Assembly (NCBI GenBank): GCA_903862465.1
Contig: CAIOYH010000198.1
Location: 1 to 39,372 of the forward strand
From: an uncultured bacterium
GTDB lineage: Bacteria > Bacteroidota > Bacteroidia > Bacteroidales > CAIWKO01
DNA: 39,372 nucleotides
Reading direction: 5' to 3'
Below, one piece after another: positions 8,563-39,372 of this stretch; within the stretch, counting starts at the first letter, position 1, and each line of letters begins with the position of its first letter. Below the pieces are notes generated by a model, which saw only the letters and a list, made by a program, of their open reading frames with translations, had not been told where the DNA came from and searched no databases. The translations under genes and the position numbers were made by a program.

Positions 8563-8814
8563 CTAGAAGGTCTCCGACAATGGCTAGAAAGTCTCTGACA
8601 ATGCCTAGAAGGCATTCGACAATGCCTAGAAAGCATTTGACAATGGCTAGAAGGCATTTGACAATGCCTAGAAGGCATTTGACAATGGCTAGAAGGCATT
8701 TGACAATGGCTAGAAGGTCTTCGACAATGGCTAGAAGGTCTTCGACAATACCTAGAAAGACTTTGACAATGCCTAGAAGGTCTTCGACAATGGCTAGAAA
8801 GACTTCGACCAAAC
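8563..8814. repeat. 21-bp tandem array, 12 units
   Basis: Twelve consecutive units of exactly 21 bp each begin CTAGAAGG or CTAGAAAG and end TTTGACAATG or TTCGACAATG plus one base. Variation is concentrated at two or three central positions (GCAT, GTCT, GACT), so units alternate between a few subtypes. Because 21 is a multiple of 3, frames stay open on both strands across the array: the plus frame encodes TMARRHL-like heptads and the minus frame encodes hydrophobic AIVKCLL-like heptads. I read these as by-products. The array lies 82 bp before the start of the 326-aa gene. Confidence 0.95.
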
Positions 8815-8896
8815 TTTGAAATAAAATGACAATTTATATCACAAAAAAAACAATCAGAAAATCACATATTCAATTAAATAATAAAAAAAACTCACC

Positions 8897-25953: not shown

Positions 25954-25971
25954 GTGAAGAGCAAAAAATAA

Positions 25972-26330
25972 AACAACAGTTCCGTAAGCCGGGTTCTGTT
26001 TTAGTCTATCATTTATCTAGCTGCGTCGTCGCCAACGCAGTCCAACGACCTACCCTCCGGAATTGGGCGGGCAGCCCTCAAACTCCGGTTTATTTGGTCT
26101 TTCAACCCATAAGGTTTGCCCTCCCAACACGTCACCGTATCGGGACGTGAGCTCTTACCTCACATTTTCACCCTTTCCGCGACACCGTGGCATCGTGGTG
26201 GTTATTTTCTGTGGCACTTGCTGGCTTTCGGTTGCCCGAAATCCTTCCCGTTAGGAAGTATGGCGCCCTGTGTTGCCCGGACTTTCCTCTTTTCGGGTTG
26301 CCCCGAACAGCGATAAACCGAACTGTTGTT
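25972..26330 (-). ncRNA. rnpB: RNase P RNA (type A)
   Basis: This is the catalytic RNA of RNase P, which matures tRNA 5' ends. Read on the minus strand it contains the conserved blocks in order: AGAGGAAAGTCCGGGCA near the 5' end, ACAGGGC, CCTAACGGGAAGG, GGTAAGAGCTCAC, GGGTAGGTCGTTG, AGATAAATGATAG and CAGAACCCGGCTTAC at the 3' end. Helix P1 closes the molecule: AACAACAGTTC at the 5' end pairs with GAACTGTTGTT at the 3' end (25972-25982 with 26320-26330), which sets both ends at about 359 nt. A -7 box lies 9 bp upstream of the 5' end. It is convergent with the preceding plus-strand gene. Confidence 0.97.
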
Positions 26331-26338
26331 TTACGCGG

Positions 26339-26346
26339 CAAAGGTA
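26339..26346 (-). promoter_or_regulatory. -7 box of rnpB
   Basis: The minus strand reads TACCTTTG (TAnnTTTG), ending 9 bp before the 5' end of helix P1 at 26330. This matches the usual distance from this box to the transcription start. Confidence 0.75.
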
Positions 26347-26431
26347 GTAAAATTTATGATTGAAGATTTATGATTTTATATTTAGGCTTGGCAATTTGAA
26401 ATATATGATTAGCGATATGGCAAAAAAAGCG

Positions 26432-26439
26432 TATTTTTG
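26432..26439 (+). promoter_or_regulatory. -7 box of the ketosynthase operon
   Basis: TATTTTTG followed by CAGCC matches TAnnTTTG and lies 25 bp before ATG 26464. The frame extends upstream to a possible TTG at 26437, but that lies inside the box, so 26464 is the start. Confidence 0.65.
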
Positions 26440-26463
26440 CAGCCACTTTTTAAATACATTCTG

Positions 26464-27666
26464 ATGAACGAAAAAGTTTTTATTGCGGGTATAGGCATAG
26501 TTTCTGCCATTGGCTTCACGGTTGAAGAAACCCTTCAATCCCTGAGAGCAGGTCGCCATGGCGTTGGTTCTATCACCCATCTTGAAACCACATTGAAAGA
26601 GCAAATCCCTGCTGCCCAAATCAAGAAGACGAACAACGAACTCAAGCACATGTTGGGCTTGGAGAACAATGAACCTATCACCCGAACTAGTCTTTTCGGT
26701 ATGTTGGCAGCGCGCGAAGCTTTGACCAACTCCGGTATTGATATTGGAAAATATCGCTGTGGCATTGTGTCGGCAACTTCGGTGGGAGGTATGGATTTGA
26801 GTGAACATTTTTATGATGATTTCAATGCCGACCGTGCTCAAGGCGATTTGCTATATGTGAAAGGACACGATTGTGCCGAAAGCACCGAACGTATTGCCAA
26901 TTTTTTGGGTATCAAAGATTTTATGGCAACCATCAGCACCGCATGTTCTTCTTCGGCAAACTCCATTATGTTTGGTTCGCGCTTGATAAAAAACAATGTG
27001 GTGGATATGGTGTTGGCAGGGGGCACCGATTCCCTTACCCGTTTCACCATGAACGGATTTAATACCTTGATGATTTTAGATAAAGAACATTGCAAACCTT
27101 TCGATGCAAAACGAGTGGGGTTGAACATGGGCGAAGGTTCAGGCTTTGTGCTGTTGGTCTCTGAAAAAATAGTATCCGAAATACATAAAAACCCTTTAGC
27201 CGAAGTGAAAGGTTATGGCAATGCCAACGATGCCTATCATCAAACTGCCTCTTCGCCCGACGGGCAAGGCGCCTACCTCGCCATGACCACTGCCCTCGCC
27301 ATGAGCGGACTTCATCCCGAAGATATAGATTATATTAATGTTCACGGAACCGGCACCAGCAACAACGATTTGTCGGAAGGCATTGCCATGCAACGTATTT
27401 TTGGTGATAAGGTACCCTTGTTTAGTTCTACGAAACCATTCACGGGGCACACCTTGGGTGCGGCGGGCGGCATCGAAGCGGTGTTGTCTGTTTTGGCGAT
27501 ACAACATAATTTGGTGTATCCAAATCTCAACTTCAGCGAGCAGATTCCAGAACTCAACATTTCACCTGTAACACATCTCATAGAGAATGTGAACGTCCGA
27601 AATGTGTTGTCCAATTCTTTCGGCTTTGGCGGAAACAACTCCACTTTAATTCTATCAGACTGTTAA
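26464..27666 (+). CDS. Beta-ketoacyl-ACP synthase (FabF-like)
   Basis: This 400-aa elongating ketosynthase is the first gene of a five-gene operon. The Cys-His-His triad is complete: Cys161 in STACSSSANS, His294 in VHGTGTSN, His329 in KPFTGHTLGAAGG; the NSFGFGGNN loop is near the C-terminus. It condenses malonyl-ACP with an acyl-ACP. Its partners (a degenerate ketosynthase 3 bp downstream, a NodB deacetylase, a LolA-like carrier and a FabZ-like protein) match the aryl-polyene/flexirubin type better than housekeeping fatty acid synthesis, where FabF usually lies beside acpP. That assignment is inferred from context; the catalytic function is clear. ACP and ketoreductase genes are not in the operon and would have to be supplied elsewhere. 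Confidence 0.93.
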   Translation: MNEKVFIAGIGIVSAIGFTVEETLQSLRAGRHGVGSITHLETTLKEQIPAAQIKKTNNELKHMLGLENNEPITRTSLFGMLAAREALTNSGIDIGKYRCGIVSATSVGGMDLSEHFYDDFNADRAQGDLLYVKGHDCAESTERIANFLGIKDFMATISTACSSSANSIMFGSRLIKNNVVDMVLAGGTDSLTRFTMNGFNTLMILDKEHCKPFDAKRVGLNMGEGSGFVLLVSEKIVSEIHKNPLAEVKGYGNANDAYHQTASSPDGQGAYLAMTTALAMSGLHPEDIDYINVHGTGTSNNDLSEGIAMQRIFGDKVPLFSSTKPFTGHTLGAAGGIEAVLSVLAIQHNLVYPNLNFSEQIPELNISPVTHLIENVNVRNVLSNSFGFGGNNSTLILSDC

Positions 27667-27669
27667 ACT

Positions 27670-28728
27670 ATGAAAGCATATATAAATTCCCTTTGCGCCA
27701 TCAGTCCTGCTAATACCTTCGCGGGCGATTTCTCTTTGGTGGCAGAAAACTATCCGAACGATTATCTCACCTGTGTGGAGCCTGACTATAAGGAAATCAT
27801 CAACCCCAATCTCATCCGACGGATGGGGCGTGTGATTAAGATGGGAGTGGCTGCAAGTCTCAAATGTTTGAAGGATATCGAACTTGCAAATCCCGACGCT
27901 ATCATCACAGGCACAAGCTTGGGCTGCATAGAGGATACCGAGAAATTCCTCAATCAAATTGTGATTAACAAGGAACAGTTTTTGGCGCCCACTTCTTTCA
28001 TTCAATCCACCCACAACACCATTGCCGGACAAATTGCCCTGCTGTTAAAATGCAATTCGTATAATTATGCTTATGTGCATCGCAGCTTCTCGTTCGAAAA
28101 TGCTTTGCTCGACACCCTGATGATGCTCACCGAGCAACCCAATCACAAGATACTTTTGGGCGGAGTGGATGAAATCACGCAGGTTTCCTATACCATCATG
28201 CAACGCTTGGGGATATATAAAAGTGTGAAGGATGCCTCTACCGAACTCTTTCGACACAAAACTGAAGGCAGCATCGCCGGAGAAGGTTCTACATTTTTCG
28301 TCATGTCGAATACGGCTGACAAGGCTTTTGCCTGCGTCCAGGGTGTGAAAACTTTCTATAAACCTACGGATGATATTGAAGCACAAAACAACATTCTCAG
28401 TTTTCTGTCCGAGCATGGTCTTTCGGCGCAAGAGGTGGATGCGGTCATCATGGGCTACAGTGGCGACAGTCGTTATGACAGCGTGTATGATAGCATAACC
28501 GAGGCGGTATTTCCCCACAATAACATTTTGTATTATAAACATCTTTCAGGTGACTATTTCACATCTTCGGCTTTTGCGATGTGGGCGGGGGCACAGCTAA
28601 TCAAAACTCAAACGCTTCCCGAGGCGATGCATTATCGTTTCGTTTCAGCCAAAGCTCTGAAAAATATCTTGATTTATAATCAATATAAAAACTCTGAACA
28701 TTCCCTAATCCTGCTTTCGGCATGTTAA
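27670..28728 (+). CDS. Ketosynthase-like protein without catalytic residues
   Basis: This 352-aa protein has a thiolase-like fold and resembles the beta-ketoacyl synthase N-terminal-like family of aryl-polyene clusters (GTSLGCIEDTEKFLNQ, SFIQSTHNTIAGQIAL, SFSFENALLDTL). The positions of the triad are all changed: where FabF has ACSSS this protein has VHRSFSFE (136-143) with no Cys; HGTGT becomes GYSGDS (262-267); and TGHTLGAAG becomes SGDYFTSSA (293-301), with Asp295 at the histidine. It therefore probably works as a chain-length-factor-like partner forming a heterodimer with the upstream enzyme, as in type II polyketide systems. It starts 3 bp after the ketosynthase stop and overlaps the next gene by 7 bp, consistent with coupled translation. 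Confidence 0.85.
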   Translation: MKAYINSLCAISPANTFAGDFSLVAENYPNDYLTCVEPDYKEIINPNLIRRMGRVIKMGVAASLKCLKDIELANPDAIITGTSLGCIEDTEKFLNQIVINKEQFLAPTSFIQSTHNTIAGQIALLLKCNSYNYAYVHRSFSFENALLDTLMMLTEQPNHKILLGGVDEITQVSYTIMQRLGIYKSVKDASTELFRHKTEGSIAGEGSTFFVMSNTADKAFACVQGVKTFYKPTDDIEAQNNILSFLSEHGLSAQEVDAVIMGYSGDSRYDSVYDSITEAVFPHNNILYYKHLSGDYFTSSAFAMWAGAQLIKTQTLPEAMHYRFVSAKALKNILIYNQYKNSEHSLILLSAC

Positions 28729-29489
28729 ACTTCAAGCGCACAAGTGTCATCTTCTTGATGATGATACTTTCCCTGAATGTTTTTAATGTCATTTTCGGTA
28801 TTTCGGGTTGGTGGTACGTCGTGCCCGGGATATTTTTGTTTGCCATGACAGGCATCGGATCCTTCCGCATCGGCATGTCATTTTATTTTGATGTGATTTG
28901 CAAGGTGCCTACCACCAACCAAATTGTGTTGACTTTCGATGATGGTCCCGACGAGCGGACCACCCTGAAAGTTCTCGAAGTGTTGAAAAAACATGACGCA
29001 AGCGCTACCTTCTTTTGCATCGGAAGCAAAGTTGCCCAATTTCCCGAGGTGGTTGTGCAAACCCATCGCGAAGGGCATATCATCGCTAACCATTCCTATT
29101 GTCATAATGATTTCTATGGCTTTTATTCCAAGAAGAAAATCATCGCCGATTTGATGCAGTGCAACCAAATCATCCGCGAGACGATAGGGGAGAAGCCCCG
29201 TTTTTTTCGTCCCCCCTTTGGTGTCACCAATCCCAACATGAAACGCGCCCTGCGCAAATTTCCTCTGATTCCCATCGGTTGGAGCCTTAGAACTTTAGAC
29301 ACCGTGAACTCCGATAGGGAAATCCTGATGAAGAAATTGCGCCAAACCAAAGCAGGCGATATCATTCTTTTTCACGACCGCGTGGAACATATCGAAGTGG
29401 TGCTCGACGAATTTTTATCTTTTTGCAAACAACAACATTTACAGATAGCACGTTTGGATGAGGTGCTAAATATGCCCGCTTATGAATAA
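28722..29489 (+). CDS. Membrane-anchored NodB-type polysaccharide deacetylase
   Basis: This 255-aa carbohydrate esterase family 4 protein has two hydrophobic segments at the N-terminus (about 9-27 and 31-45) that anchor it. The NodB motifs are complete: TFDDGPD (71-77, catalytic base Asp73 and metal Asp74), HSYCH (His124 and His128, metal), RPPFG (163-167) and ILFHD with catalytic His218. It is a metal-dependent N- or O-deacetylase acting at the membrane or in the periplasm; the substrate is not evident. It overlaps the genes on both sides (7 bp and 8 bp). Deacetylases of this type occur in flexirubin-type clusters, where their role is not settled. Confidence 0.92.
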   Translation: MLNFKRTSVIFLMMILSLNVFNVIFGISGWWYVVPGIFLFAMTGIGSFRIGMSFYFDVICKVPTTNQIVLTFDDGPDERTTLKVLEVLKKHDASATFFCIGSKVAQFPEVVVQTHREGHIIANHSYCHNDFYGFYSKKKIIADLMQCNQIIRETIGEKPRFFRPPFGVTNPNMKRALRKFPLIPIGWSLRTLDTVNSDREILMKKLRQTKAGDIILFHDRVEHIEVVLDEFLSFCKQQHLQIARLDEVLNMPAYE

Positions 29490-30129
29490 ACTATTTTTTG
29501 CTGCCATCGCAGCTTCCCTTTTATGGATAAACACCGCGAAAGCCGCTCCTTCGGACACCACCTATCGCGCTCTGAAAGATACCACCGGACTCAAAGTTTT
29601 GGTGAACAATTATTCCAAAAACTTGGTCACCTTAGAGAGCAACTTCACCCAACTCAAATACCTCTCTGTACTCACTGAACCCAACGTATCGAAAGGCTAT
29701 TTCTGTTTCAAGAGTGGGGCCATCCGCTGGGAATATACAGTGCCTTTTGCCTATCTAATCATCATCAACAATAACCGTTTGTTTGTGGTTGACGACAAGA
29801 AATCCAACTCCTTCGACCTGTCTGCCTCCAAAGCTTTTATGGCGCTCAACGCCAGTTTGGGCAAAATTATGCAAGGCAATGTGCTGAACGATGCCAAAGA
29901 TTTTTCGTGCAAATATTTCGAAAACGAAACCACTTACAAACTCATCCTCAGCCCAAAGGACAAAGACCTGAAATCTTTTTTCAATCAGATTGTTATTTAT
30001 TTTGATAAGATACTCTTCTCCGTTTCCCGCGTGGTGATGATAGAATTGTCGGGCGACCAAACCGACATCGAGTTTCTGAATCGGAAAATAAATGGACCCA
30101 TCCCCGACGAAAAATTCAACGTAAAATAA
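29482..30129 (+). CDS. LolA-like outer-membrane lipoprotein carrier
   Basis: This 215-aa periplasmic protein has a signal peptide (MNKLFFAAIAASLLWINTAK, ending near KAA). The LolA-like half-barrel is suggested by LESNFTQLKYLSVLTEP, GYFCFKSGAIRWEYTVPFAY, NNRLFVVDDK and the later YKLILSPKD and DQTDIEFLNRKING strands. LolA carries lipoproteins to the outer membrane. A copy inside a ketosynthase operon is typical of aryl-polyene/flexirubin loci, where it is thought to move a lipid product rather than general lipoproteins. It overlaps the deacetylase gene by 8 bp, and the next gene starts directly after its stop. Confidence 0.88.
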   Translation: MNKLFFAAIAASLLWINTAKAAPSDTTYRALKDTTGLKVLVNNYSKNLVTLESNFTQLKYLSVLTEPNVSKGYFCFKSGAIRWEYTVPFAYLIIINNNRLFVVDDKKSNSFDLSASKAFMALNASLGKIMQGNVLNDAKDFSCKYFENETTYKLILSPKDKDLKSFFNQIVIYFDKILFSVSRVVMIELSGDQTDIEFLNRKINGPIPDEKFNVK

Positions 30130-30507
30130 ATGCCCATGCTATTACTCAACTCCTTTTTTACCATAGCCGACATCGCGCAGCAAGACGAAAAAACTCGCGT
30201 AACGGTCGAAATAAATCCCCAACATCCCATCTTCGAAGGACATTTTCCGGGCAATCCCGTGGTGCCGGGCGTATGCCTGATTCAGATGATTCGCGAAACC
30301 CTCGAAACTATACATCAAAAGAAATTTCGCCTGACCAAAGCCGACGAAATAAAATTTATGAATATGGTTATCCCTGCGCTAAATCCGAAGTTTACCTTGG
30401 AGATTCAGCCACGACTGAAATCTGAAAATCCTTTCGCTTTTAGCATCATTGTTTCAGATGGAACAATTGTTTTTATTAAAATGAAAGTGGACTTTGAGGA
30501 GGCGTAA
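30130..30507 (+). CDS. FabZ/ApeI-like hot-dog protein
   Basis: This 125-aa single hot-dog domain carries HPIFEGHFPGNPVVPGV (32-48), with the FabZ catalytic His at position 38. The glutamate expected on the central helix (PGVxxxE in FabZ) is Gln52 here (PGVCLIQMIRE), so it may be a weak dehydratase, a thioesterase-like enzyme or a binding protein, as suggested for ApeI-type members of polyene clusters. It is shorter than FabZ (about 145 aa). Its ATG follows the LolA stop with no gap. It is the last gene of the operon; the following 230 bp is low-complexity DNA. Confidence 0.85.
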   Translation: MPMLLLNSFFTIADIAQQDEKTRVTVEINPQHPIFEGHFPGNPVVPGVCLIQMIRETLETIHQKKFRLTKADEIKFMNMVIPALNPKFTLEIQPRLKSENPFAFSIIVSDGTIVFIKMKVDFEEA

Positions 30508-30739
30508 GGCTATCAAGATCCAAGCTCCAAATACCAAATACCAAATACCAAGCCCCAAACCCCAAGATCCAAGCCCCAAGCCCCAAGACTCAAGAAAAAC
30601 CACAGAGACACAAAGGCACAAAGAAACACTAAGAAGTTCCAACTATAAAACAATTCAACAATAGAACAATCCAACAATAAAACAATAGAACAATTTAACC
30701 AATTAACCTAATCAACCAATTAACTAATTCACTCACCCC
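30508..30739. repeat. Low-complexity intergenic repeats
   Basis: Three blocks lie here: CCAAG/CCAAATA direct repeats (about 30518-30597); a half-copy of the dispersed element, ACCACAGAGACACAAAGG (30599-30636); and AACAAT/AACCAATTAA direct repeats (30645-30730). No gene, terminator hairpin or TAnnTTTG box was found, so the next gene may be read from the operon upstream or from an unseen promoter. Confidence 0.8.
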
Positions 30740-31534
30740 TTGACCACTAAGCTCCTCCTTCCAGCCATCCAAGTCTCCCTCGAAGCAGGTGCTCAGATTA
30801 TGCACATCTTCCGCACGAAGATACGCATCAGCATCAAACGCAATCTGACGCCTGTTACGAATGCCGACAAGTTGGCAAATCAGACTATCATCGAAGGTTT
30901 GGCTGAGTTTGCTATCCCCATGATAAGCGAGGAAACTAAGGTAGTGCCTTTCGAGGAGCGCGCGCAATGGGATCGCTTTTGGTTGGTGGATCCGCTGGAC
31001 GGCACCAAGGAATTTATCGCCCATCGGGATGACTTCACGGTCAATATCGCCCTCGTGCATCAGGGTATTCCTGTGATGGGCGTTATTTACGCTCCGGCTT
31101 ATGATATGTTGTATTTTGCTTCCGCAGAAATAGGTTCTTTTCGCTTGCGCGATGCTGCTCAGGTGGTGGTGGCTAATATCTCCCTGCCAGCGCTCATGGC
31201 GGTTTCGGTTCGTTTGCCCGATGCCCAAACCGACATGATGACTTTTGTCGTCAGCCGTTCGCATATCAACCGCGCTACCCAAAAATATCTCGACCTGCAG
31301 CCCCATCCCAAGCAGTTTGTGCCCAAGGGCAGTTCCCTAAAACTCTGCGCCATCGCCGAAGGCACAGCCGACGAATATCCCCGCTTTGGACGCACTATGG
31401 AATGGGATATTGCTGCCGGAGATGCCATACTGCGCCATGCAGGGGGCAAAGTATTTAATGCCGAAACTAGGCAGCCGTTGCTTTATAACAAACGCGACTT
31501 GGCGAACCCGGAGTTTATCGCCTCGCGACGATAG
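30740..31534 (+). CDS. cysQ: CysQ / inositol monophosphatase-family phosphatase
   Basis: This 264-aa Mg-dependent phosphatase has the family motifs MISEET (61-66, metal Glu64/Glu65), WLVDPLDGTKEF (81-92, Asp84 and Asp87) and EWDIAAGDAIL (221-231, Asp223). The KEF after DPLDGT and the overall length fit 3'(2'),5'-bisphosphate nucleotidase (CysQ), which clears PAP from sulfate assimilation, better than plain inositol monophosphatase. The start is a TTG at 30740: an in-frame stop lies at 30725-30727, no upstream ATG is available, and the first internal ATG (residue 21) would remove a conserved helix. It is separated by 232 bp from the upstream operon. The link to the sulfur enzymes at 10258-13143 is thematic only. 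Confidence 0.88.
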   Translation: MTTKLLLPAIQVSLEAGAQIMHIFRTKIRISIKRNLTPVTNADKLANQTIIEGLAEFAIPMISEETKVVPFEERAQWDRFWLVDPLDGTKEFIAHRDDFTVNIALVHQGIPVMGVIYAPAYDMLYFASAEIGSFRLRDAAQVVVANISLPALMAVSVRLPDAQTDMMTFVVSRSHINRATQKYLDLQPHPKQFVPKGSSLKLCAIAEGTADEYPRFGRTMEWDIAAGDAILRHAGGKVFNAETRQPLLYNKRDLANPEFIASRR

Positions 31535-31762
31535 AAATTTTTTAATTTCTAATATCCAAATTCCAAGAGCCAAGAACCAAGACCAAAGTCTTATGCTCAA
31601 AGACATATTTTTTTATACTTTCAGACAAGGTGTTTTTTTGACTGACAAACGTATTTTTGCTTGCGCGTTGCTTGTTTTTGCTTCCGCGTTGGAATAATTC
31701 CGATTTGCGTTGATTTTTTTGGGTTTCGACAAGGTGTTTTTTTGACTGACAAGGAATATTTT
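31535..31762. other. Start of a 1.45-kb non-coding region
   Basis: After the CysQ stop come CCAAGA-type low-complexity DNA and then irregular copies of the two motifs that later form regular arrays: TTTTTGACTGACAA (near 31637 and 31741) and GCTTGCGCGTTG (near 31660 and 31680). Frames that cross it on either strand have repeat-driven composition and are not accepted as genes. Confidence 0.6.
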
Positions 31763-31930
31763 GCTTCCGCGTTGGAATATTGAGCTTCCGCGTTGCAATA
31801 TGGAGCTCGCGCGTTGGTTACTTTAGCTTCCGCGTTGCTATATGGAGCTTGCGCGTTGGTTTCTTTTGCTTGCGCGTTGTTTACTGAAGCTTCCGCGTTC
31901 GTTGTTTTTGCTTACTCGTCGTTATCTTTT
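31763..31930. repeat. 21-bp tandem array, 8 units
   Basis: Eight units begin GCTTCCGCGTTG or GCTTGCGCGTTG at 31763, 31784, 31805, 31826, 31847, 31868, 31889 and 31910, exactly 21 bp apart. The 9-bp remainder of each unit is variable and AT-rich (CAATATGGA, GTTACTTTA, GTTTCTTTT). An isolated further copy lies at 31951. Confidence 0.93.
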
Positions 31931-31972
31931 TTGCCGACAAAGAATTTTTTGCTTGCGCGTTGTTTGTTTTTT

Positions 31973-32172
31973 GACCGAAAAGGCTATTTTTTGACTGACA
32001 AGGAATCTTTTTGACTGACAAACTGTTTTTTTGACGGACAAGTTTACTTTTTGACTGACAAACTGTTTTTTTGACTGACAAGCTTACTTTTTGATTGACA
32101 AACTGTTTTTTTGACTGACAAGCTTACTTTTTGACTGACAAACGATTTTTTTGACTGACAAGGGTGTTTTTT
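31973..32172. repeat. 20-bp tandem array, 10 units
   Basis: Ten units begin GACTGACAA (variants GACCGAAAA, GACGGACAA, GATTGACAA) at 31973, 31993, 32013 and so on to 32153, exactly 20 bp apart. Each ends in a T-run. Alternating units carry ACTG or GCTTAC after the core, giving a 40-bp higher-order period in part of the array. It follows the 21-bp array at once and shares its T-rich half. Confidence 0.93.
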
Positions 32173-35900: not shown

Positions 35901-38900
35901 TTCAAACCCTATTACTATGTATTCTTGGAATCCTGCTTGGAATCCGGCAGTTTTGCCTGCTTATAGTGGTGTTCCACCCCCTCCGCATTGGATCGTATTC
36001 CCAGCTACCACGTCCACCTATACGGTGACGGGAACTTCCGGAGGATGTACCGGTACGGCAAGTACAACCATAACAATTAATCCTGCTCCGGTCATGACTT
36101 CACCTCAAAGCACTTCGGTTTGCGGTGGCAGTGCGTTTAGTTATTCTCCAACGGGTTCTACAGTACCTCCCGGTTCTATTTTTACATGGTCAGCTCCCAC
36201 AGGTACCGGATTTTCGGGCGGAGCAGCGGGAACAGGTACGAGCATCACCGGTACCCTCACCAACACCACCATCAATAATGCAACGGCTGTTTACACGGTA
36301 ACTTCCACAGGTCCAGGACCTACTTTTTGTCCGGGGAATACGTTTACGGTTAATGTATTGATAACTTCATCCCCCATCATTCCGGCACAGGGTCCGTTCC
36401 AATTGTGTAGCGGTACTGCCTATAACGGTACGCCTATAAATAGTAATCCGACTCCCATTGTGCCTTTAGGCACAACGTATGCTTGGTCTGCTCCGGTTAT
36501 AAATCCTCCTGGAACTATAATAGTTACCGGTAGTTCGCCCGCTGTCGCACCGGGTGCTGCAACCGGACAGGGTTTGATTAACCTGACGCTTACCAACACT
36601 TCTACAAGCGTTGCCACCGTCACATATCAAATTACGCCTACTTCAGGAACATGCGTTGGGTTGCCATTCACTTTGATTGCCAATGTGAATCCGATACCGC
36701 TTATTCCATCGCAACTTGCTACCGTGTGTAGCGGAGCAAGCTTTACGGTGGCTCCCGTAACGAACCTTCCGAGCACCTTAGTGATACCGGGCACCACTTA
36801 CAGTTGGGCTGCACCATCGGGCACGGGCTTTACAGGTGGAGCAGCAGGCACGAATGCTGCAAACATCAGCGGAACCTTGACCAATACAACGAATCTTCCC
36901 GTTACAGCGACTTATGTAGTAACGCCAACATCTCCTGCACCATGTTCGGGTGCGATTTTTACGGTAACGGTTACTATTAATCCGAAACCCACCATAACAC
37001 CCATGACTGCAACCGCATGTAGCACATCGCCGTTTACGGTAACTCCTGCAAATGGCACCGATGGCGTGGTCCCTGCTAACACCACTTATAGTTGGTCAGC
37101 TCCAACAGTAACAGGAGCAATGACGGGAGGCGCAGCAGGCAGCAATGCTACAAACATTAGTGGCACACTCACCAATCCAACGAACGTACCTCAAACAGCC
37201 ACCTACACCGTTACCCCAACTTCGCCGATATTAATAGGCGGTTGCGTGGGACTTCCATTTACAGTAACCGTTACTGTAAATCCAAAACCTACCATAAGTG
37301 CTATGACCGCTATCATCTGTAGTGAAGCAACTTTTAACGTAACACCGGTAAACCCTACTAATGGTGTAGTCCCTGCGGGTACCACGTATACATGGGGAGT
37401 TCCCACTGTGACCGGAGGACTAACCGGTGGCGCAGCAAGTGTGGGTCAACAAACGAGCATTTTTGGGACGCTCACCAATCCTATCAGCAGTAGCGTACAA
37501 GCCACCTATACAGTAACCCCGACCTCACCTGCAGGCGGTTGTGTTGGGGCTACCTTTACAGTAATCGTTACCGTAAATCCAAAACCTGCAATAACAAACA
37601 TGGCAATTTCTACTTGTAGTGGAGTTGCGTTTTCGACATTCCCTGTGAATGGAACAAATGGTGTAGTCCCCACTGGTACCAAATATACATGGCTTACACC
37701 AACAGGTACCGGATTTATCGGTGGACTACCGCAGCCGGCGCTTTCTTCGACCATCAACGGAAATTTGACTAACACTACGAATGCCCCCGTAACAGCTACT
37801 TATACTGTTACACCAACCTCCGTTTCTTTAGGCGGTTGTGTTGGAGCTACATTTACACTAACGGTAACTGTAAACCCCAAACCGACAATACCCGCTCAGA
37901 CGGCAACAATTTGTAGTGGAACAGCCTTTACCACAAGTCCTACTAATGGTGTGCCAACTGGTGCTACCATCGTGCCTGTTGGAACCACTTATACTTGGGC
38001 TGCCTCCCCCACTATCAGCCCGGCGGGATCTATCACGGGCGGTAGTGCGCAGGCAGTGGCTCAGCCCAATATCAGTCAAACACTCACCAATACCACCAAT
38101 CTCCCCGCAACAGCAACTTATACTGTGTCTCCGACTTTTGGTGGTTGTTCGGGTAATACCTTTATAGTAACTGTAAACGTAAATCCGACGCCAACCGTAA
38201 CGAATACGCCTTTGACGCAAACTATTTGTTCAGGAGCAAGCACAGCCTTGGTAACGCTTACATCCAACGTTGCAGGCACCACTTTTGCATGGACCGCTTC
38301 AGCTACTCCGGGTGTAACTGGTTTTGCCCTAAGCGGCACAAGTACTTTTCCTGTTCAAACTATTTCAACAACAGGAACCACACAAGGAACTGTAACTTAT
38401 ACTATCACACCAACAGCTGCCACTTGTCCGGGACCGGTAGCTACTTATACTGTATTGGTGAATCCGATACCAACAGTAACCAATACACCATTAACACAAA
38501 CCATTTGTTCAGGGGCAAGCACAGCATTAGTTACTCTTACCTCCAATGTTGTTGGAGCTAACTTTACATGGACAGCTACAGCCACAGCAGGTGTTACAGG
38601 TTTCACCGCAAACGGCACGAATACTATTCCTGTTCAAACTATTTCGACAAGCGGGACCACACAAGGAACCGTTACCTATATTATTACGCCAAGTGCGGCA
38701 GGATGTACTGGACCAAATGCTACCTATACCGTATTGGTGAATCCGATACCCACTGTTACAAACACTCCATTATCACAAACAATATGTTCTGGAGCAAGTA
38801 CCACATTAGTCACCCTTACTTCCAATGTTGTTGGAACTAACTTTACATGGACAGCTACCGCCACAGTAGGTGTAACGGGTTTTACCGCCAGTGGCACCAA

Positions 38901-39372
38901 TACTATACCTGTGCAAATTATTTCCACAAGCGGGACCACACAAGGAAGCGTTACCTATATTATTACACCAAGTGCAGCAGGATGTACAGGATCAACTGCC
39001 ACTTATACTGTATATGTAAATCCGATACCAACAGTAACCAATACGCCATTAACACAAACCATTTGTTCGGGAGCTAGCACCACATTAGTCACCCTTACGT
39101 CTGATGTTGTTGGAGCTAACTTTACATGGACAGCTACTGCGACAGCAGGTGTTACAGGTTTCACAGCGAACGGCACCAATACTATTCCTGTTCAAACTAT
39201 TTCCACAAGTGGCACCACACAAGGAACCGTAACGTATGTTATTACTCCCAATGCCGCCGGATGTACAGGACCAACAACAAGTTATACTGTATTAGTAAAT
39301 CCATCCCCTACTGTTACCAACACACCTTTGACTCAGACCATTTGTTCTGGTGCAAGTACCACATTGGTTACG
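32992..39372 (+). CDS. Giant secreted repeat protein, 3' end outside window
   Basis: 2127 residues are visible and the frame is open to the last base. ATG 32992 and ATG 33022 are both possible; the latter gives a more usual signal peptide (MKRALNLIRNRQVFLISSVF) with cleavage near HVDAQ. Residues about 44-621 hold four units of about 145 residues with CG.YQGGDVWFTAVVP, GQLAIYTGPNC, CNDDYGG and GSTVWIRYWN, resembling pre-peptidase C-terminal (PPC) beta-sandwiches. Ig/PKD-like domains follow, starting with CSG or CVG and TYSW. Then comes a series of about 100-110-residue PKD-like units (GTTYSWAAPSGTGFTGGAAG, TNTTNLPVTATYVVTPTS). The last visible part is a 93-residue repeat. It is probably a T9SS-exported surface protein or adhesin, since the visible domains match that class; the sorting domain would lie beyond the edge. 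Confidence 0.9.
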   Translation, partial: MTNKIRYPQLMKRALNLIRNRQVFLISSVFLLFLLSSSHVDAQLTFADNPCNGTNPIPTNALSTTCGYNTYSTVGMTNTFNVMPNLGTPTCGNFVGGDIWFAVTVGASGNVAVNTQAINGTNGGLALYTNLNCNTGTATQVACNAPGIWGGSPQLFANGLTPGSVVYIRFWNDYSWWVGASNPGTFQLCAYSPTTPTNDNPCTAQPIPVNSSCIVQQFTNWGSTNTTVPGPPTCGGYQGMDVWFSAIVPANTGTITFDVNNIPGGGQDGALAIYTGPNCNTLTQVACNDDYTGLDPLINLNITGYTVGSTIWIRYWNWQNNTPGMFNLCAYYVAPPVPPTNDNPCSPAIPVIVNNSCIPVNYTNTGATNTTTPSGAGLCGSYQGGDVWFTAVVPANGHLIFDVNNNGGGNDGQLAIYTGPNCSTLSQIACNDDYGGSLDPFIDQYGLTPGSTVWIRYWNYGGYSNGTFNFCVYSPGPPPNDDCSGATPVVPGSACVYISPIPTNAFATNSPVPNTPPCGNYQGGDVWFTIVVPPSGHLIFDVGGILPNQGGGTNGAMALYSDCGITIIDCNNNQNGGNLDPFLDETGLIPGSTVYLRYWNFGSGTGANLGTFNLCVYDPTMLACNVDAGQNVSICPGGSTQLSGSQFGFATYNWTPTTGLDNPNILTPIATPAATTTYTLQVSGGSTCGVAMTDAVTVTVNTPPTVTAATPLTVCSGANLTLSCTPSGSTSYTYSWTGPNSYTAPIQNPILGNAVYPTSTGTYTVVVTAANGCTASATTSVTVYQSPTIVTNAAPASICVGGTSQLSGNITPLIISPGGTYVWTPATGLSNANIYNPVATPPQGTTVYTVTGTTTNSCTASSTVSVLVNANINTTFTSLGPYCVGSTPGILPPNSNNSPPISGTWNPLTISTAVNGVFNFTFTPTAGVCATQAFMTVTVNAVPVVTIDSVHNQVHCANGSESWIYVASSISNPITMYSWNPAWNPAVLPAYSGVPPPPHWIVFPATTSTYTVTGTSGGCTGTASTTITINPAPVMTSPQSTSVCGGSAFSYSPTGSTVPPGSIFTWSAPTGTGFSGGAAGTGTSITGTLTNTTINNATAVYTVTSTGPGPTFCPGNTFTVNVLITSSPIIPAQGPFQLCSGTAYNGTPINSNPTPIVPLGTTYAWSAPVINPPGTIIVTGSSPAVAPGAATGQGLINLTLTNTSTSVATVTYQITPTSGTCVGLPFTLIANVNPIPLIPSQLATVCSGASFTVAPVTNLPSTLVIPGTTYSWAAPSGTGFTGGAAGTNAANISGTLTNTTNLPVTATYVVTPTSPAPCSGAIFTVTVTINPKPTITPMTATACSTSPFTVTPANGTDGVVPANTTYSWSAPTVTGAMTGGAAGSNATNISGTLTNPTNVPQTATYTVTPTSPILIGGCVGLPFTVTVTVNPKPTISAMTAIICSEATFNVTPVNPTNGVVPAGTTYTWGVPTVTGGLTGGAASVGQQTSIFGTLTNPISSSVQATYTVTPTSPAGGCVGATFTVIVTVNPKPAITNMAISTCSGVAFSTFPVNGTNGVVPTGTKYTWLTPTGTGFIGGLPQPALSSTINGNLTNTTNAPVTATYTVTPTSVSLGGCVGATFTLTVTVNPKPTIPAQTATICSGTAFTTSPTNGVPTGATIVPVGTTYTWAASPTISPAGSITGGSAQAVAQPNISQTLTNTTNLPATATYTVSPTFGGCSGNTFIVTVNVNPTPTVTNTPLTQTICSGASTALVTLTSNVAGTTFAWTASATPGVTGFALSGTSTFPVQTISTTGTTQGTVTYTITPTAATCPGPVATYTVLVNPIPTVTNTPLTQTICSGASTALVTLTSNVVGANFTWTATATAGVTGFTANGTNTIPVQTISTSGTTQGTVTYIITPSAAGCTGPNATYTVLVNPIPTVTNTPLSQTICSGASTTLVTLTSNVVGTNFTWTATATVGVTGFTASGTNTIPVQIISTSGTTQGSVTYIITPSAAGCTGSTATYTVYVNPIPTVTNTPLTQTICSGASTTLVTLTSDVVGANFTWTATATAGVTGFTANGTNTIPVQTISTSGTTQGTVTYVITPNAAGCTGPTTSYTVLVNPSPTVTNTPLTQTICSGASTTLVT
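38190..39372 (+). repeat. 279-bp tandem repeats in giant secreted gene
   Basis: The TGTTC of the conserved TICSGAS codons recurs at 38227, 38506, 38785, 39064 and 39343, exactly 279 bp (93 codons) apart. Copies 2-4 are very similar at DNA level, for example ACTTTACATGGACAGCTAC in each. Every unit carries NTPLTQTICSGAS, FTWTATAT, TISTSGTTQG and CTGP..TYTV. The fifth copy runs off the edge. Confidence 0.92.

Follow-up and report, generated by a model that had tools for sequence, protein, structure and literature searches.

A five-gene operon of an uncultured Bacteroidales bacterium as the probable downstream part of a dispersed flexirubin/aryl-polyene-type pathway

The stretch analysed here (the window) comprises the 39,372 nucleotides of contig CAIOYH010000198.1 (C198) from an uncultured Bacteroidales bacterium of the GTDB lineage CAIWKO01 (GenBank assembly GCA_903862465.1, termed G000), and the element in question is an operon of five genes at 26464-30507. 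With a probability of about 80%, this operon represents the downstream portion of a pathway of the flexirubin/aryl-polyene type which the genus has dispersed, and pathway genes were located on five contigs of the assembly (C198, C41, C189, C224, and C140). An earlier note, made from the window alone, had offered two explanations: a split pigment pathway with its other half elsewhere, or a distinct pathway that borrows the housekeeping acyl carrier protein (ACP) and FabG. The genes on the other four contigs support the first explanation, and the second is not needed because C41 encodes two ACPs and, by Pfam, a FabG-type reductase, all resembling their pigment-cluster counterparts. The view that the locus is complete as it stands held for the operon and failed for the pathway.

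All five coding sequences lie on the plus strand with junctions of +3, -7, -8, and 0 bp, and both coordinates and Pfam/NCBIfam matches agree with the gene classes and gaps (-8 to +3 bp) described earlier. The first gene (26464..27666) encodes a beta-ketoacyl-ACP synthase (ketosynthase, KS) of 400 aa, an ApeO/Flx-type elongating subunit (PF00109/PF02801) whose catalytic Cys and both His residues are present in the alignment. The second (27670..28728) encodes a ketosynthase-like protein of 352 aa of the chain-length-factor (CLF) type, matched remotely by Pfam Ketoacyl-synt_2, in which Ser replaces the Cys and Gly replaces the first His; among the CLF rows, the Cys position held Cys in 2 of 90 and the first His position held Gly in 90 of 90. 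Such losses would be expected of a chain-length factor, and an active KS with an inactive CLF partner, as in an aryl polyene (APE) type II polyketide synthase (PKS), is present as judged by sequence alone. The third gene (28722..29489) encodes a NodB-type (CE4) deacetylase with a hydrophobic N-terminus (PF01522, Polysacc_deac_1). Its metal-binding and catalytic motifs (TFDDG, HSxxH, RPPFG, and LFHD) are intact and nearly invariant over 56 rows, and the nearest solved structures are peptidoglycan/chitin deacetylases. Phosphatidylglucosamine as the sugar of an aryl polyene lipid would suit an N-acetylglucosamine deacetylase. The fourth gene (29482..30129) encodes a LolA-like periplasmic lipid carrier with an N-terminus resembling a signal peptide by eye (PF03548), which scored 174.9 bits against a cut-off of 125 for the NCBIfam model 'flexirubin biosynthesis/transport protein LolA2' (LolA2_flexi, NF053544). 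The fifth (30130..30507) encodes half of a hot-dog dehydratase (DH), FabZ/ApeI-like, which matches PF07977 (FabA-like) and, below its cut-off, the ApeI-like model PF22818.

Alignment of this last protein to FabZ structures showed that the catalytic His is kept and that Gln52 occupies the position of the FabZ Glu. The His was present in 68 of 68 window-type DH rows and the Gln in 63 of 68 (two of the five rows without Gln, L066_20227 and L078_18848, look like unrelated dehydratases and were kept in the count). Rows of the type encoded on C41 carry the Glu throughout (49/49) and have lost the His in 47 of 49. The half-sites are complementary across relatives; the C41 partner of this genome carries an extra His. 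For APE clusters, PMC8041823 describes dehydratases that are heterodimers sharing one active site.

The remaining pathway genes were sought in the same assembly and in three other genomes of the genus (G001, G002, and the sister species G003), using open reading frame lists that left out genes under 75-80 aa. A KS search of the genome with the window KS, in which the query started at 26467 and omitted the first Met, gave six places. Another FabF lies between ACP and RNase III genes on C10; identity of the window KS with the housekeeping FabF was accordingly ruled out, as was the earlier concern that it might be the only FabF of the genome. One strand of C41 carries a CLF, a KS that is a paralogue of the window KS (52% identical), an ACP, a 210-aa protein, and KS2; past approximately 7 kb of other genes, the contig has a thioesterase, an ABC permease, an ABC ATPase, DarH (NF053550, 391.8 bits, cut-off 300), a 141-aa protein, a dehydratase, a B12-radical S-adenosylmethionine (SAM) enzyme (TIGR04072, 398.4 bits, cut-off 360), an LpxL-type acyltransferase, a second ACP, KS3, and the FabG-type reductase. 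The C41-type genes form a single uninterrupted run in G001 (L235). C189 carries an MMPL exporter, a GT2 glycosyltransferase, a C45/AAT-type protein, and PlsC; along its whole length the exporter shares 38% identity with the one from a complete cluster, and it was the only full-length pigment-type exporter found in the genome. This exporter (L173:7178-11107) has three parts, an MMPL domain followed by a PlsC-type acyltransferase and then a SAM methyltransferase, and might thereby link acylation and methylation with export. C224 carries an FAD oxidoreductase, a second C45-type protein, a clear radical-SAM enzyme, a further radical-SAM candidate that stayed under the Pfam cut-offs, a thioesterase, two enoyl-CoA hydratases, and a KS III resembling DarB, which scored 115 bits with the StlD/DarB model (cut-off 450), and C140 carries a 3-hydroxyacyl-CoA dehydrogenase, a FabF, and an ACP. 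On C140 the dehydrogenase and FabF form one frame of 778 aa (L025:10098-12434); in G002 and G003 each has a gene of its own. Taken together, the window and C41 hold the flexirubin elongation set (KS/CLF, ACPs, ketoreductase, and dehydratases), and the window and C189 hold the LolA, GT2, acyltransferase, MMPL exporter, and deacetylase of that pathway.

From these genes, a pathway can be proposed that would work as an APE-type type II PKS with outer-membrane export. The window KS and its CLF partner would elongate a polyene bound to the C41-encoded carrier proteins, and the C41 reductase would reduce each keto group. The window dehydratase, contributing the His half-site, and the C41 dehydratase, contributing the Glu half-site, would form one composite active site. 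The C41 thioesterase and DarH may release and transfer the acid. On the periplasmic side, NodB and LolA, together with the GT2, PlsC, and MMPL exporter of C189, are predicted to see to the attachment of the product and to its transport to the outer membrane.

The dispersed arrangement is shared by the genus. The five genes adjoin cysQ in all four genomes and have no other pathway gene near them (in the 39 kb window and in 15 kb each of G001-G003), so that the earlier suggestion of a full pigment cluster always standing beside them in close relatives does not hold. Protein identity between the window and G003 is 93-96% for the five genes, and both KS types are kept in 4/4 genomes. In G021, G023, and G024, by comparison, KS-CLF-NodB-LolA and then the dehydratase occur in the same order within fuller clusters, and G030 has ACP-KS-CLF-NodB-LolA on one contig and an exporter on another. 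For a wider survey, 80 CLF loci were named, the best 80 of at least 582 confirmed stretches; in the stretches examined, ACP1 or KS2 was present in 70, NodB in 52, LolA in 50, and a window-type DH (at a loose threshold) in 62. Three loci (L048, L080, and L081) hold a third, divergent KS-CLF type (KS 41-43%, CLF 32-38%), which is encoded on the opposite strand next to an ABC permease, adjoined in L048 and L081 also by an ACP, an ABC ATPase, and DarH.

Retention of two full KS-CLF pairs in the genus (KS 51-52% and CLF 41% identity) makes redundancy unlikely, and the pairs are likely kept for different chains or stages. It also fits an envelope-lipid pathway of its own, having just the carriers and the reductase in common with the C41 pathway, in which NodB, LolA, and an exporter attach the acyl chain of the second KS-CLF pair to a different lipid. 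Blocks standing by themselves would suit such a pathway: a filter for NodB and LolA without ACP1, KS2, or MMPL retained 6 of the 80 loci, of which L067, L094, and L100 were set aside (contig-end cuts or other pathway genes present), leaving L055, L105, and L076, the first two without an ACP1, KS2, or MMPL match in the stretch examined and the third likewise, but with less than 2 kb of upstream sequence. We nevertheless regard a separate lipid as improbable, given that other genomes carry the block inside fuller pigment clusters, that the window dehydratase is without the Glu that the C41 type has, and that the genome yielded a single exporter of the pigment type.

How a dispersed flexirubin/aryl-polyene-type pathway may have arisen is suggested by four loci of metagenome-assembled genomes (MAGs) in which both pairs stand in tandem as KS-CLF-KS-CLF: L065 and L093 (labelled Bacteroidales), L074 (Bacteroidetes), and L096 (Alphaproteobacteria, a label that is probably wrong). 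There the first pair follows KS2 and the 210-aa gene and the second precedes NodB-LolA, so that the gap between the tandem pairs corresponds to the break between C41 and the window; L094 is an apparent fifth case cut by a contig end. Since both pairs are in tandem in these loci, the genus probably split such an ancestral cluster between the KS-CLF pairs. Trees were built after dropping 22 locus prefixes, mostly Mucilaginibacter/Chitinophagaceae, which reduced the KS rows from 87 to 67 and the CLF rows from 90 to 68. The C41-type KSs of the genus group with the first tandem copies (SH-aLRT 95), and the C41-type CLFs share a single branch of 18 rows with the first tandem copies (88).

Several observations weigh against the proposed reading. 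The only C41-type dehydratases with a His at the aligned position are those of this species and its sister G003 (2/49), and half-site complementarity is consequently not strict here. In the KS tree, the window KS branch is wider (32 rows; 94, unstarred) and is not tied to the second tandem copies, and among the CLFs the window group joins 20 rows of the Chitinophaga type (93), at a place separate from that of the second copies; the fission model thus rests on gene order and the C41 half. The assembly is a draft, and the contigs may be closer together than they appear. In G002 a single contig (L178) bears C224- and C189-type genes side by side, and in G001 they share a contig at a distance of about 8 kb, so these parts may be neighbours here as well and the true loci may number three or four. 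Finally, neither a tyrosine ammonia-lyase (TAL)-type lyase nor a 4-coumarate-CoA/AMP-binding ligase of the pigment-cluster type was found in the draft genomes G000 and G003, where gaps are possible and where the only lyase is 31-33% identical. G001 and G002 do have the TAL-type lyase (PF00221), which is 55% identical to its counterpart in a complete cluster, and the ligase, inferred by position to be of the FlxY type, occurs within the genus in G001 only, with weak matches in G002. Estimated completeness is 96.5% for G000 and 81% for G003, which makes the lack of two genes from both sisters suggestive, not proof. Activation of an aryl starter was searched for by the FlxA and FlxY types, neither of which was found in this species.

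The missing lyase and ligase could also mean that the operon is a decaying remnant of a pigment cluster, left after this species and its sister had lost the starter pathway, as the lyase persists in G002 and both genes in G001. Decay would hardly have left five genes intact with their catalytic motifs and so close to those of G003, nor the genes of C41, C189, and C224 likewise as open reading frames, and a remnant is therefore considered very improbable.

DarA and DarB, which make the dialkylresorcinol of flexirubins, were not detected in the four genomes of the genus. The DarA query gave no match in these four and, in a set of 39 genomes that included the present one, a single weak match of 20 bits; it was named by its place before a DarB (599 bits, cut-off 550), is without a family match of its own, and is a protein that we take to be DarA. 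No DarB exceeded the 550-bit cut-off in the four genomes (best 86.5 bits). Of the genes that the earlier note had proposed to seek elsewhere in the genome, ACPs and an MMPL exporter were thus recovered, and DarA/DarB and tyrosine ammonia-lyase were not. Since neither DarA/DarB nor genes of the FlxA/FlxY type were found in the species, the system is better not classed with the true flexirubin pathways. These absences, the second KS-CLF pair, and the half-site dehydratase had not been foreseen.

A cassette around the DarB-like KS III (a thioesterase, two enoyl-CoA hydratases, the KS III, a B12-radical-SAM enzyme, a 3-hydroxyacyl-CoA dehydrogenase, and a further FabF) stands directly after a window-type KS-CLF-NodB-LolA-x-DH block in L055, L065, L076, and L105, with the thioesterase in three of the four; in this genome its genes are on C224 and C140. 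The KS III of L076 (8663-9719) runs over two overlapping frames, by a frameshift or sequencing error. As a common trait the cassette was rejected, having been found at E <= 1e-70 in 1 of 295 class-sample genomes (own only). DarB (29 loci) and the cassette (4 loci) never occurred in the same stretch among the 80 named loci. DarA was absent from seven of seven genomes with a tandem pair or cassette (L055, L065, L076, L105, L074, L093, and L096) and present in six of six comparison genomes (L083, L087, L047, the source of the query, L073, L118, and L069; Fisher 5.8e-4); it was also absent from all eight non-genus relatives with LolA2_flexi over its cut-off. DarA absence as a mark of the cassette was set aside, the comparison being post hoc and between non-independent groups, and such absence being common in the order. 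The cassette could supply a partner joined by DarH. Extended further, and only tentatively, this would have the genus and a few Bacteroidales/Bacteroidetes-labelled MAGs make a flexirubin-like conjugate in which a cassette-built partner replaces the DarA/DarB dialkylresorcinol, each KS-CLF pair builds one of the two chains, and DarH joins them; if so, a new conjugate would be predictable and testable in lipid extracts.

The borders given for the operon in the earlier note were recovered. Upstream lies rnpB (25969-26329, minus strand; RNaseP_bact_a, 264.8 bits), and downstream a low-complexity stretch at about 30508-30739, made of CCAAGCCCCAAACC- and AACAATAAA-type repeats, precedes a CysQ phosphatase gene (30740-31534). 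A TAnnTTTG-like box (TATTTTTG; 26432..26439, plus strand), 24 bp before the first ATG, is a weak candidate for an operon promoter element. The two-box promoter pattern had eight matches across the window and none at the operon start, and TATTTTTG had no upstream partner; a sigma-70 scan of 26300-31600 was at chance level (11 found, 9.5 expected), and neither scan was informative. Degenerate tandem repeats with units of 8-104 bp occur between larger genes of the window at 31619-32172, 8563-8833, and 30520-30731, the last being part of the low-complexity stretch after the operon, and a 279-bp tandem repeat of 4.3 copies (38179-39365) lies near the window's last position.

Cluster-mining programs search for genes packed closely together, and in this genome they would recognise no more than fragments. 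The findings suggest a flexirubin-type pathway whose dispersed operons function only in combination, probably under an obligate link through a dehydratase with its halves at two loci, in a branch where the resorcinol half seems replaced. A non-exhaustive search of titles and abstract openings returned no description of a two-pair, split, or DarA-less flexirubin pathway. Among known systems, the flexirubin (flx and dar) clusters of Chitinophaga pinensis and Flavobacterium johnsoniae are alike, as far as outlined in PMC3992019, in their KS set, dehydratases, polysaccharide deacetylase, acyltransferase, LolA, glycosyltransferase, and exporter, the last five of which that source places in the C. 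pinensis cluster, and, by the NCBIfam model, in the DarH-type protein of C41. They differ from the arrangement here, which has several contigs and two KS-CLF pairs, in which DarA/DarB were not found, and which in this species yielded neither the FlxA-type lyase nor the FlxY-type ligase. The APE systems of Escherichia coli, Xenorhabdus, and Acinetobacter share, according to PMC8253772, PMC8358021, and PMC8041823, the KS-CLF pair (ApeO-ApeC), a further KS, two ACPs, a ketoreductase, a LolA-like chaperone, and an RND-type exporter, and their heterodimeric dehydratase would have its counterpart in the proposed pairing of the window and C41 dehydratases. In the same sources they differ in forming one compact cluster with a 4-hydroxybenzoate starter; no deacetylase appears in the gene table for E. 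coli, and the CLF of Acinetobacter has roughly half the size of a KS, against 352 aa here. The arcuflavin system of Azoarcus sp. BH72, a xanthomonadin-dialkylresorcinol hybrid, differs in its chorismatase/XanB2 starter gene, its dar genes, its proteobacterial host, and its gene order, and resembles the present one, within the account given in PMC3949708, in having a polysaccharide deacetylase, exporter, LolA, acyltransferase, and dehydratase in one sub-cluster and in a pathway that extends over physically unlinked gene clusters.

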